DNA of 64,000 nucleotides from Asticcacaulis excentricus. GTDB lineage: Bacteria > Pseudomonadota > Alphaproteobacteria > Caulobacterales > Caulobacteraceae. Below the pieces are notes generated by a model. It saw only the letters and a list, made by a program, of their open reading frames with translations, was not told the origin of the DNA and did not search any database. Location: contig NZ_AP018828.1 in the NCBI RefSeq assembly GCF_003966695.1, forward strand, positions 1-64,000. Direction: 5' to 3'. Shown one piece after another: positions 39,492 to 42,949 of this stretch. The translations under genes and the position numbers were made by a program. Every line of letters starts with the position of its first letter. The stretch's first letter is position 1.

Positions 39492-40451
39492 ATGCGGCTT
39501 TTGCCCGCCCTTACCGTCGCCGCGCTGGGTCTGGGGCTCCTGTCCCCCGCCCTCGCCGCCGACCTGATCCCCGTGGACGACAGCTACACCGTCTCGCAGC
39601 GGTTTGAGCGCTATAAGGATCAGTATGCGGGCATAAGCTGGCCCGTGGCCGAGTTCCAGAGCGGGCAAAAGGTGCTGTTTGACCGCCGCTACAAGAGTAT
39701 CGGCGGGCGCGAACTGCATATCGACGTCTTCCTGCCGGTTGCCGGGCGCGCCAATGACAAAGGTATCCTGCTGGTGCACGGTGGTGGCTGGCGCTCAGGC
39801 AACAAGTCGCATTTCTACGCTCTGGCTACCCGGCTGGCGCAGCGCGGCTATACCGTCTTCCTGCCGGAGTTTCGCCTGTCACCCGAAGCCCCCTATCCGG
39901 CGGGTCTGATTGACGTCAATGACGCCCTTGTCTGGGTCAAAGGGCAGGCGCAGACCTTTGGCATCGACCCCAAGCGGCTGGCCATAGGCGGGGCCTCGTC
40001 CGGCGGGCAGATGGCCGCGCTTGTGGCCTATACGGCGGACACGCCGCTCTACAAAAGCCAGGCGGGCGACGATACGCGCGTCAGCGCCCTGATCGACATT
40101 GACGGCGTGCTCGACTTCACCACACCTCTGGCCCTGCAATACGAAAACGCCGCCGGGGACAGCTCGGCCGCCGGTCTGTGGCTGGGCGGTGCGATGGAAA
40201 AGGTGCCCGACCGCTGGCGCGAAGCCAGTGCCGCGAAGCACGTCAGCGCCGCATCGCCGCCGACCCTCGTCATCAGCAGCGGCCTGACGCGCTTTACCGC
40301 CGGTCACGAAGACGTCGAGGCCAAGCTGAAAGCGCAGGGCATCGCCTATCGCTACACCGCGTTTGACAACGCCCCGCACGACATCTGGCTGTTCGATCCG
40401 TGGTTCAGCCGTATTGTCGATCTGATGGATGATTTCCTCTCGGAACACTGA
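39492..40451 (+). CDS. secreted alpha/beta-hydrolase (carbohydrate-esterase-like)
   Basis: The protein has 319 residues with a signal peptide (LLPALTVAALGLGLLSPALAA). The oxyanion motif LLVHGGGWRSGNKSHF, the nucleophile elbow AIGGASSGGQMAALV, and the His near the end (DNAPHDIWLF) form the triad. Substrates of such enzymes include acetyl or feruloyl esters. Because the next gene is a pectinesterase 7 bp downstream in the same direction, removal of acetyl groups from pectin is a reasonable guess. Confidence 0.85.
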   Translation: MRLLPALTVAALGLGLLSPALAADLIPVDDSYTVSQRFERYKDQYAGISWPVAEFQSGQKVLFDRRYKSIGGRELHIDVFLPVAGRANDKGILLVHGGGWRSGNKSHFYALATRLAQRGYTVFLPEFRLSPEAPYPAGLIDVNDALVWVKGQAQTFGIDPKRLAIGGASSGGQMAALVAYTADTPLYKSQAGDDTRVSALIDIDGVLDFTTPLALQYENAAGDSSAAGLWLGGAMEKVPDRWREASAAKHVSAASPPTLVISSGLTRFTAGHEDVEAKLKAQGIAYRYTAFDNAPHDIWLFDPWFSRIVDLMDDFLSEH

Positions 40452-40458
40452 GCCGCTC

Positions 40459-41583
40459 ATGTCTGTACGCCCCACCCTGCTCGCCAGCGCCGTCGCCTGT
40501 CTGACCCTTGCGGCGCTGAGCCTCCCCGCCGAGGCCGCCACCCGTCTCACAGTGCGCCCGGACTGCGGTTCGCAAAAGGCCTGTTTCACAAAGGTGCAGG
40601 CCGCGCTCGACGCCGCGCAAAAGGACACAAGCGACACCTGGGTCGTGATCGACGTGGCGGCGGGTGACTATTATGAAAAGGTGACGGTCAGCCGCCCGAA
40701 AGTGCGTCTCAAAGGCGCTGGGGTGAAACGCACCCGCCTGCACTTTGACGCCGTGGCCGAAACGGCGGGCAAGTACCACCGCCGCAACTGGGGTACGCCC
40801 GGCTCGGCCACCCTGACTATTAATGCCGATCAGGTGACGGTGGAGGGTCTGACCATCGAAAACACCTTCGACTATCTAAGCAACGACGCGCGACCGAGCG
40901 ATGACCCGCAGAAGATCAAAAATTCGCAAGCTGTCGCGGTGCTGCTCGATATCGACAGCGACCGCGTGCTGTTCCGCAAGACGGCGATGCTCGGCTATCA
41001 GGACACGCTGTTTGCCAATGGCAAGCGGGCGGTGATCCGCGACAGCCTGATCGCCGGCAATATCGACTTCATCTTCGGCAACGGGCAATTGCTGATCGAA
41101 GACAGCGAATTGCGCACCCGCAATCGCGGCGCGCCCACGCCGCCGGGGGAGTTCCATTCCTTCCTGCTGGCCCCCTCCACGCCCCTGAGCCAGCCCATCG
41201 GCCTCGTCGTTTATCGGTCGCGCCTGACACGCGAAGCCGGTGTGCCCGACGGCGCGGTGGCGCTGGCCCGACCCTGGCACCCGACGACCACCTTCCAGGA
41301 CGGGCGCTATGCCGACCCCAACGCCATGGGGCAGGCCCTGTTTATCGACTGCGTGATGGACGCCCATATCCACCCCGACCACTGGACCAGCATGGGCGGC
41401 ACGGCGCGCGACGGCACCAAGACCGCCGTCTTCCATCCGCAGGACTCCCGCTTTTTTGAAAGCGGCTCGACCGGACCGGGCGCCAGACACCGCGACATCG
41501 GCATACGCTGGAAAGACGCCCCGGACATCGCGACCGTGCGCCGTCAGCTCTCCAATGGCTGGCCTCATACCAGGAGTCATTGA
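40459..41583 (+). CDS. secreted pectinesterase (pectin methylesterase, CE8)
   Basis: The protein has 374 residues from ATG 40459, with a signal peptide ending near LPAEA. The right-handed beta-helix family motifs are all present: GYQDTLF (first Asp), GNIDFIFGNGQ (second Asp) and LARPWHP (Arg; most members have LGRPW). It removes methyl groups from homogalacturonan in the periplasm or outside. Genes for uronate import (hexuronate MFS) and an IclR regulator lie 0.6-2 kb downstream. Its stop codon is in the loop of a 12-bp terminator hairpin. Confidence 0.93.
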   Translation: MSVRPTLLASAVACLTLAALSLPAEAATRLTVRPDCGSQKACFTKVQAALDAAQKDTSDTWVVIDVAAGDYYEKVTVSRPKVRLKGAGVKRTRLHFDAVAETAGKYHRRNWGTPGSATLTINADQVTVEGLTIENTFDYLSNDARPSDDPQKIKNSQAVAVLLDIDSDRVLFRKTAMLGYQDTLFANGKRAVIRDSLIAGNIDFIFGNGQLLIEDSELRTRNRGAPTPPGEFHSFLLAPSTPLSQPIGLVVYRSRLTREAGVPDGAVALARPWHPTTTFQDGRYADPNAMGQALFIDCVMDAHIHPDHWTSMGGTARDGTKTAVFHPQDSRFFESGSTGPGARHRDIGIRWKDAPDIATVRRQLSNGWPHTRSH

Positions 41584-41597
41584 AAATGACTCCTGGT
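41569..41597 (+). terminator. hairpin carrying the pectinesterase stop codon in its loop
   Basis: ACCAGGAGTCAT and ATGACTCCTGGT form a perfect 12-bp stem around TGAAA; TGA is the pectinesterase stop. A short T-rich stretch (ATTCCTTTC) follows. Confidence 0.75.
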
Positions 41598-41599
41598 AT

Positions 41600-41772
41600 T
41601 CCTTTCGAGAATTTCTCATATCGCTGATACATATGAGACAGTCTCGTTTCTTCAACGGCCGGATGCGGTCAGCATCTTCGGCCGTTGGCATCAAGTGAAA
41701 TAACCCTTCCTGACGCTTCGGCTACCCGTTGATGCGTCGCACTGGCCGCCCCTCACCGGGCGGCCTTTCTTT
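41600..41772 (+). ncRNA. candidate structured RNA ending in an intrinsic terminator
   Basis: No gene is visible here, but several hairpins follow one another. These are TCTCATAT/ATATGAGA (41614-41638), AACGGCCGGATGC pairing with GCATC-TT-CGGCCGTT (41654-41686), GACGC/GCGTC (41712-41738), and the terminator GGCCGCCC/GGGCGGCC with TTTCTTT (41744-41772). The terminator has no coding gene to serve other than the pectinesterase, which already has a hairpin. The region may be a long 3' UTR or a separate small RNA; a promoter is not obvious. Confidence 0.35.
41744..41772 (+). terminator. intrinsic terminator
   Basis: GGCCGCCC and GGGCGGCC form a perfect 8-bp stem around CTCACC, followed by TTTCTTT. 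It is 160 bp beyond the pectinesterase stop. Confidence 0.85.
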
Positions 41773-41843
41773 GTGGGCGCGTTCACAATTAAACCCATAT
41801 TTCATATTTAACACACCGTCTGACGCGCTGTAGCTACAGACGA

Positions 41844-41944
41844 TAGAGCGAAATGATTTCTAGTGGAATCATTTCGCTCAAGCCGCCTTTGAGGCGGCGG
41901 CCAAGGTGGCGGATCCGCCGCCCGGCGAGGGCCAAACATAATGA
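41844..41944. repeat. dispersed ~100-bp intergenic repeat, copy B
   Basis: AGAGCGAAATGATTTC, GGAATCATTTCGCTCAAGCC, GGCGGCGGCCAAGGTGGCGG, then CCGCCCGGCGAGGG and AAACATAATGAT align with copies A and C. The start of the element is itself a palindrome (GAAATGATT/AATCATTTC). Confidence 0.85.
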
Positions 41945-42015
41945 TCGACCCCTCACGGACTTTTTGTGATTTGTAACTGAACTTGACACAGTCCTGCCTT
42001 GCAATTGCCGCATCG

Positions 42016-42115
42016 CAGCATATATGATGCAGGTGTTCGATGCCTTGCATCGATTGCCCTTCCTGGGCGTTTCCTCCCTGTAAACTGGCCGCGCCGAAAT
42101 GCGCGGCTTTTTTTT
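42016..42115 (+). ncRNA. candidate trans-acting small RNA with anti-Shine-Dalgarno loops
   Basis: A promoter-like TTGCAA (41999-42004) and TATATG (42021-42026) precede a likely start near 42033. Then come a hairpin TCGATGC-CTT-GCATCGA (42037-42053), a second hairpin GCCC-TTCCT-GGGC (42056-42068), an unpaired TTTCCTCCCTG (42070-42080), and a strong terminator GCCGCGC/GCGCGGC with eight Ts (42088-42115). The CU-rich loops and single-stranded CCUCCC resemble known alphaproteobacterial small RNAs that block ribosome-binding sites. No open frame fits. The RNA would be about 80 nt; the start given includes the -10. Confidence 0.5.
42088..42115 (+). terminator. intrinsic terminator of the candidate small RNA
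   Basis: GCCGCGC-CGAAAT-GCGCGGC followed by TTTTTTTT. It lies 84 bp upstream of the IclR gene with no coding gene directly before it. Confidence 0.9.
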
Positions 42116-42199
42116 GCCTGCGACCAAGGGTCCGCGAGGCCTTTTTGACGCCGCAGCGCGAAACGGCTATCACATTATCAATAAGCCAATGGAATCGTG

Positions 42200-42949
42200 A
42201 TGTCCGAACCGACCTACAGCGCGCCTGCCCTTGAAAAGGGCATTGAGATTCTTGAGTTTCTGGCCGGGCGGTCGGGCCCGCTGAGCATCGGTGAGATCTG
42301 CGCCGGGGTCGGCCGTTCCAAGGCCGAAATCTACCGCATGATCCTGACTCTGGAGGGCAAGGGGTATCTGCGGCGCGATATAGCCGGTCGCTACACCATG
42401 ACCAGCCGCCTGTTCGATTTCGGTATGCTGTACCCGCCGCGTCAGAGCCTGATCGAGACGGCCCTGCCGCATATGCGCGCTCTGGCCCGCGACAGCGAAC
42501 AATCGTGCCACATGACCGTCCTGTCGCGCGAGCATATCGTCGCCATTGCCCGCGCCGAAAGCGAGAGCATGACCGCCTTCGGGGTTAAGGTCGGCTTCCG
42601 CGCCCCGGCGGCCACGGCCACGTCCGGGCGCATGATCTTCGGCTTTCTGCCCCTGCGCGATCAGCTCAACTGGTATCACACCATGCGTGGCCGCATCGAC
42701 CGGCCCGTTCTGCGCGCCTTCCTTGATGAAGCGCGTGAAGCGAAGCGTCGGGGCTATCTGGTGCGCGACAGTGCCTATACGCTGGGTGTTGTCGATCTGG
42801 CCGTGCCGATCTTCGCGGCGCGCTCAAACCACGCCGTCGCCGCCCTGATCGTGCCCTTCATGACGCACGTGGTCTGCCATATGGACAAGCCGCAGGTGCT
42901 GGAGCGCCTGCGCCAGACGGCACAGGCCATTTCCAGCGAGCTGTATTAA
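42200..42949 (+). CDS. IclR-family transcription regulator
   Basis: The protein has about 249 residues from ATG 42200 (GTG 42197 is also possible). The N-terminal winged helix reads LEKGIEILEFLAGRSGPLSI then VGRSKAEIYRMILTLEGKGY. The C-terminal effector domain follows (LAVPIFAARSNHAVAALIVP). IclR proteins of this type often control uronate, aromatic or pectin genes. The pectinesterase lies upstream and the hexuronate carrier downstream, so it may sense a galacturonate-derived compound. A GH95 pseudogene lies between it and the carrier on the other strand. Confidence 0.88.
   Translation: MSEPTYSAPALEKGIEILEFLAGRSGPLSIGEICAGVGRSKAEIYRMILTLEGKGYLRRDIAGRYTMTSRLFDFGMLYPPRQSLIETALPHMRALARDSEQSCHMTVLSREHIVAIARAESESMTAFGVKVGFRAPAATATSGRMIFGFLPLRDQLNWYHTMRGRIDRPVLRAFLDEAREAKRRGYLVRDSAYTLGVVDLAVPIFAARSNHAVAALIVPFMTHVVCHMDKPQVLERLRQTAQAISSELY

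Follow-up and report, generated by a model that had tools for sequence, protein, structure and literature searches.

A chain of hairpins behind a pectinesterase gene of Asticcacaulis excentricus joins a MITE-like mobile repeat to the native gene end

The window, a stretch of 64,000 nucleotides of Asticcacaulis excentricus (contig NZ_AP018828.1, positions 1 to 64,000 of the forward strand), carries a pectinesterase gene whose ORF (40429-41583) ends GWPHTRSH* and is followed by a succession of stem-loops. The features of this gene end are as follows.

41565-41567, no strand: left copy of the target-site duplication TCA, identical to 41691-41693
41568-41690, + strand: MITE-like dispersed repeat of 123 bp, here TACCAG...TTGGCA (consensus TACCAA...TTGGTA), delimited by its copies and empty alleles
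41568-41598, + strand: hairpin 1 of the element, 14 bp with a loop of 3, with a GANTC site; the stop codon now used by the pectinesterase gene lies within it
41581-41583, + strand: present pectinesterase stop TGA, supplied by the element inside hairpin 1; the new C-terminus is HTRSH
41606-41646, + strand: hairpin 2 of the element, in the family 14 strongly covarying pairs, in the window copy interrupted (5 and 9 pairs)
41653-41687, + strand: hairpin 3 of the element, its stem of 9+5 bp broken by a 2-nt bulge
41691-41693, no strand: right copy of the target-site duplication TCA, identical to 41565-41567
41694-41703, + strand: what is left of the former gene end (..A GTG AAA TAA), now untranslated, matching the intact end in the related genome G001
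41711-41739, + strand: native 3′-UTR hairpin with a C-rich apical loop (alignment A2 of 16 orthologues, 86.0% of helix cells paired)
41744-41772, + strand: intrinsic terminator belonging to the pectinesterase gene, a stem (41744-41765) followed by a T-run (terminator scan, 3′ ends of relatives, A2)

The hairpins of 41565-41775 are real and far from chance: this stretch folds to -95.3 kcal/mol compared with -56.9 +/- 3.8 for shuffled sequences (z -10.2), and 41600-41775 to -72.5 compared with -47.7 +/- 3.9 (z -6.4), with 0 of 200 shuffles as low in either case. An earlier note, made from the letters alone, had described four stem-loops after the pectinesterase hairpin (41568-41598), and the folds and the terminator scan recover all four, at about 41606-41646, 41653-41687 and 41711-41739 and at the terminator. 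The interrupted 13-bp stem that it had placed at 41654-41686 is hairpin 3, to which the fold adds one U-G pair. The start of the chain, set by the note at 41600, has to be moved; because the pectinesterase hairpin groups with the next two hairpins, the natural unit begins at 41568. Terminator scanning by itself is weak evidence here, since it returned 2 sites against 1.3 in shuffles. No Rfam family reaches its gathering score within 41500-41775, and a relaxed search of 41500-42200 returned only the MmgR/suhB small RNA and sub-threshold rows. MmgR (42049-42122, + strand, 54.2 bits) is the only family at gathering score in the window; it is separate from the hairpin chain and already known.

Searching 100 relatives with 41600-41775 gave matches in 11 genomes. 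Five of these (G000, G001, G010, G019 and G023) belong to one genus, and most of the matches listed for them span only about the first 95 bases and lie in many places; the other six genomes have single short matches. Copies of the element were also recognised in G001, G010, G019 and G023, and one resides on a plasmid of Asticcacaulis sp. DW145. Within the genome of the window itself, right-end patterns occur at 63 places (up to 3 mismatches) compared with 5 for a control pattern, and left-end patterns at 87 compared with 0, a count in which the palindromic left hairpin can match on both strands. The best 40 of 73 candidate copies in this genome were scored; among 30 aligned copies the length is 123 bp in 28 and 122 bp in two, with the common ends TACCAA ... 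TTGGTA. The repeat is thus present in many dispersed copies with sharp common ends, and its terminal inverted repeat, TACCAA/TTGGTA, is only about 6 bp long.

Copies of the element are flanked by a duplicated 3-bp target, TNA. From 212 distinct match rows, 125 distinct full-length copies were taken, 105 from Asticcacaulis and 20 from other genomes, and the two 3-bp flanks are the same in 85 of them: in 70 of the Asticcacaulis copies and in 15 of the 20 others, the latter count becoming 12 of 18 if the right flank is required to be TNA. When the assumed boundary of the element is shifted, identical flanks drop to 32 or fewer. TNA stands on both sides of 93 of the 125 copies, and the middle base agrees in 84 of these, whereas permuted flanks agree in 27.8 on average and in 47 at most (10,000 permutations). 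Collapsing the copies to 104 distinct sites, with the representative of each site picked to favour TNA flanks, leaves 76 sites with identical flanks and 28 without; where TNA is present on both sides, the middle base agrees in 75 of 82 (permuted mean 25.0, maximum 42). Five weak matches in G010, for which short stretches were available, show no exact target duplication.

Empty alleles accompany the duplications. At the 3′ ends of 17 orthologous pectinesterase genes the element is absent from 15; the window and G019 carry it, inserted at TCA across the Pro-Gln codons, and G001, G010 and G023 provide the empty allele of the same site, reading GCA where the occupied ones read TCA. Three further sites (L022/L222, L025/L091 and L178/L244) show empty alleles with a single TNA copy each. 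The pair L221/L202 is one base off and was left out of this count, and L164/L261, L179/L261 and L082/L136 were rejected as empty alleles, a remnant of the element being present. Dispersion, fixed termini, the 3-bp TNA target duplication and occupied and empty alleles of one site are all directly observed, and with high confidence we regard 41568-41690 as one copy of an Asticcacaulis mobile DNA element that is MITE-like and non-autonomous.

The exact insertion of this element has altered the C-terminus of the pectinesterase. The intact gene in G001 ends GGC TGG CCG CAG GTG AAA TAA (GWPQVK*), and those in G010 and G023 end GWPQAN*. The insertion exchanged the last three codons (QVK) for HTRSH and a TGA within hairpin 1, and it pushed the old stop, the native hairpin with the C-rich loop and the native terminator downstream. 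The effect on PECTINESTERASE is that the old end, AGTGAAATAA, is now found at 41694-41703. Since the insertion moved the stop upstream of hairpins 2 and 3, both now lie in a longer 3′ UTR, in agreement with the earlier suggestion of a structured 3′ UTR behind the pectinesterase gene. REP elements are said to shield mRNA ends, and hairpins 2 and 3 probably do no more than this in their new position. The locus represents a case of a repeat that rewrites a protein C-terminus and lengthens a 3′ UTR.

Beyond the element, the region 41694-41772 (hairpin plus terminator) can be aligned downstream of the gene in 16 of the 17 orthologues, and the native terminator region is clearly kept in relatives. 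The terminator, for which the earlier note had found no coding gene, is the pectinesterase gene's own, and relatives without the inserted hairpins have it too; the puzzle of the missing gene is solved because 41694-41772 is the native end of the pectinesterase gene. The hairpin chain is therefore two things joined, a mobile repeat (41568-41690) and a native gene end (41694-41772). An independent RNA gene for the whole chain is ruled out, the first three hairpins being dispersed and missing at this place in relatives, and an independent RNA, one of the possibilities raised before, is not needed.

A native regulatory RNA is a different proposition, in which part or all of the chain would be a structured 3′ UTR or a 3′-UTR-derived small RNA from the pectinesterase transcript. 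In the alignment of the 16 orthologues (A2, from which the seventeenth, G014, was left out) the loop columns are nearly invariant, 81.9% of cells are paired (77.2% in the terminator helix), and covariation amounts to 0.251 compared with 0.195 in shuffled alignments, a value reached by 2 of 500 shuffles, and with 0.201 when the partner columns are slid by +1. Support from covariation is only moderate, because double changes are slightly more numerous at the slide by +1 (7 pairs and 18 cells, compared with 6 and 17 for the structure itself); moreover, the structure's counts of pairs and pair types are reached by 79 and 272 of 500 shuffles. A covariance model built from A2 (R2) gives strong matches in 16 of 41 genomes, always at the 3′ end of the pectinesterase gene, but these are the genomes behind the model, and the search therefore adds no independent support. 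R2 has no match in G014, returns six further weak rows elsewhere (E 4e-7 to 4e-4) and, within the window, weakly matches the known small RNA MmgR (20.1 bits, E 0.00036). With hairpins 1-3 missing from 15 of 17 orthologous 3′ ends and found elsewhere in dozens of contexts, we regard a native regulatory RNA as a doubtful account of the chain; a small RNA derived from the 3′ UTR is possible for 41694-41772 only, judging by the alignment.

Between copies of the element, changes in one arm of hairpin 1 or 2 are compensated in the other. In an alignment of 34 copies (A1, 19 from Asticcacaulis and 15 others) 96.7% of the cells of these two hairpins are paired, 17 of 28 pairs are changed on both sides (11 of 14 in hairpin 2), and covariation is 0.301, compared with 0.027-0.058 for slid partners and 0.111 when shuffled; hairpin 3 is one base out of register across the two clades and was not counted. 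Among 40 distinct copies from the window's own genome, hairpin 2 has double changes in 6 of 14 pairs (30 cells, falling to at most 4 when slid by one or two columns) and hairpin 1 has three double-changed cells. Hairpin 3 has no covariation support: in the same 40 copies 96.6% of its cells are paired and only one of 14 pairs is double-changed, in one cell, while 101 mixed copies, 14 of them from non-Asticcacaulis genomes in which this hairpin is out of register, give 9 double-changed cells, below the 11 at slide +1. Compensatory changes, which the earlier note had named as a check on its chain, do exist, in hairpins 1 and 2 and to a moderate degree in 41694-41772. It is important to point out that good covariation in a chain of hairpins need not mean an RNA gene.

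Such changes could also arise without selection for structure, through template-switch correction of imperfect palindromes during replication. The mixed arms of some copies, including that of the window (CGAGAATTTCT opposite AGACAGTCTCG), are what a half-corrected intermediate would look like. However, copies from Rhizobiaceae keep the paired columns of hairpin 2 while the outer bases are largely different, and template switching alone would not obviously maintain length and position, which is an argument rather than a test. Overall, we consider this explanation of the arm changes somewhat unlikely.

The element has relatives in Rhizobiaceae and in a second Asticcacaulis. A pattern for the left hairpin matched 84 stretches of the genome collection, and the 80 listed come from Asticcacaulis, Allorhizobium undicola and terrae, Agrobacterium vitis, Rhizobium paknamense, Oryzibacter, Martelella and MAGs labelled Rhizobiaceae, Rhodobacteraceae and Kiloniellaceae. 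The Rhodobacteraceae and Kiloniellaceae MAGs (4 loci) have a solo 31-bp hairpin only, with identical TNA flanks in one of the four (L155). Solo hairpins are found in the window's own genome too, and at L261 in G000 one occupies a site at which the element is complete in L164 (A. currens) and L179 (MAG W46), consistent with deletion between direct TTGGTAT copies; solo hairpins in general may arise by deletion between the two such copies of one element. A sister family of 133-147 bp is present in G009, with 266 left-end matches (2 for the control), 74 right-end matches (0 for the control) and, at all four of the loci that were inspected, exact TNA duplications. A covariance model of the element (R1) detected members in 6 of 199 genomes of the family, each of them an Asticcacaulis, and among 385 class genomes matched the own genome only (1/385), in a search that scored 9 candidates per genome under stricter filters, with no hairpin 3 pairs in the model, and can miss members; the Rhizobiaceae members emerged from the pattern scan. 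Such a patchy range is as expected of a horizontally moving element, given searches that can miss weak members. Two variants may be mentioned alongside. A deletion derivative about 79 bp long, which lacks hairpin 2, is present at L127 (own genome, C1:443300-446300) and at L202, and the two genomes apparently carry it in the same position. In G620 (Rhizobium paknamense, via L163) many left ends have TACGAAGAGTCAT in place of TACCAA..., which suggests a sub-family with changed termini.

Insertions gather at gene ends. Among 66 sites with an exact duplication and enough flank, the target lies 0-50 nt at or beyond the stop for 54 gene 3′ ends, the genes being script-called ORFs of at least 100 aa rather than annotated ones. 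The duplicated target is the stop codon itself at 26 of the 54, compared with 14.9 expected if TNA sites there were used equally, and 2 of 10,000 simulations reach 26; this excess may reflect true preference, selection against damaging insertions or both. Hairpin 1 also carries a GANTC site in 87 of 101 distinct 123-nt copies, whereas 39 of 101 single shuffles have one anywhere; the site lies in the stem.

IS5/IS1031-type insertion sequences and Tourist-like MITEs make a 3-bp TNA-type target duplication, which the element shares, and usually have longer terminal repeats. The parts of PMC2229807 and PMC10969869 that describe bacterial MITEs and small mobile repeats (RUP, Correia/NEMIS, ERIC) portray sequences akin to ours: about 100-200 bp, with fixed ends, target duplication, strong folding and many copies near genes. 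Those repeats form one end-to-end stem, whereas the element has three separate hairpins and termini that share only about 6 bp; in PMC2229807 the termini of Correia, ERIC and RUP are tabulated as TA, in contrast with the 3-bp TNA target. By description the CcrM-associated intergenic repeats of Caulobacter (CIR, in the relevant part of PMC2229807) are similar too, being alphaproteobacterial, about 110 bp long, common to several species and built of hairpin arms and a linker with GANTC. They differ, again by description, from an element with three hairpins, an established target duplication and GANTC in the stem rather than at or in the apical loop; the same source enters the CIR target duplication as '?' and calls CIR only partly MITE-like, with more information on movement needed. 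The RIME, Sm-repeats and AB/C motifs of Sinorhizobium, as introduced in PMC2573895, are dispersed intergenic repeats of Rhizobiales and can be likened, by description, to an element with Rhizobiaceae relatives. A keyword search of the open-licence literature brought to light no description of the element.

Palindromic hairpins, placement at gene ends and a fold kept despite sequence change would also suit a repeat of the REP/REPIN type whose spread depends on a RAYT (TnpA-REP) tyrosine transposase, which would recognise hairpins as single strands. RAYT-type mobilisation is not known to leave a target duplication, and the 3-bp duplication of the element is not expected of this chemistry, which makes such an origin very improbable.

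The MITE-like reading calls for an enzyme acting in trans. No insertion sequence with TACCAA ends was found among the loci searched, and none of 30 PF01609 transposase loci (among 33 rows listed) has ends on both sides; one has a right end only and one a left end only. A scan of the collected loci for end pairs gave two, whose longest ORFs are not transposase-like, and the lone ends examined in the own genome revealed no autonomous element. Pairing left and right ends in G009 likewise yielded none among the places listed, where 36 of 73 right ends have no listed left end. An 874-bp candidate there (L351, G009:C1, 825-1698) is apparently no transposon; a solo left hairpin and a right-end remnant flank a gene whose product appears to resemble Crp/FNR-type regulators. 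A trans-acting transposase would make a 3-nt staggered cut at a TNA target, in this gene the TCA spanning the Pro-Gln codons, and insert the element, and the folded hairpins may be needed for mobilisation or maintenance. More tentatively, and we think rather unlikely, the family could be part of a wide alphaproteobacterial superfamily of multi-hairpin mobile elements with TACCAA ends and a TNA target, in which the transposase would recognise folded hairpins instead of long terminal repeats and prefer stop codons (TAA and TGA are TNA sites). If this were true, the 3-bp duplication would leave the stop intact, and hairpins would come to lie at the 3′ ends of mRNAs with little harm to the host gene. 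The family offers target duplications and empty alleles, and the same data set adds a deletion derivative and covarying stems; with all four lines together, the movement of CIR-like repeats therefore becomes testable.

Further along the window, a second, apparently unrelated dispersed repeat of at least about 89 bp occupies 41843-41931 (+ strand), running GAGCGRAATGATT...AATCATTYCGCTC and then into a GCCGCC/GGCGGC hairpin; it recurs in many of the collected loci at 82-92% identity, and the common sequence seems to extend towards GATCATTATG. A sub-threshold Rfam match to SorX overlies the MmgR gene (42055-42114, + strand; 24.5 bits against a gathering score of 46.6), and the ORF downstream of MmgR, 42197-42949, encodes a protein that by its translation resembles an IclR-type regulator.
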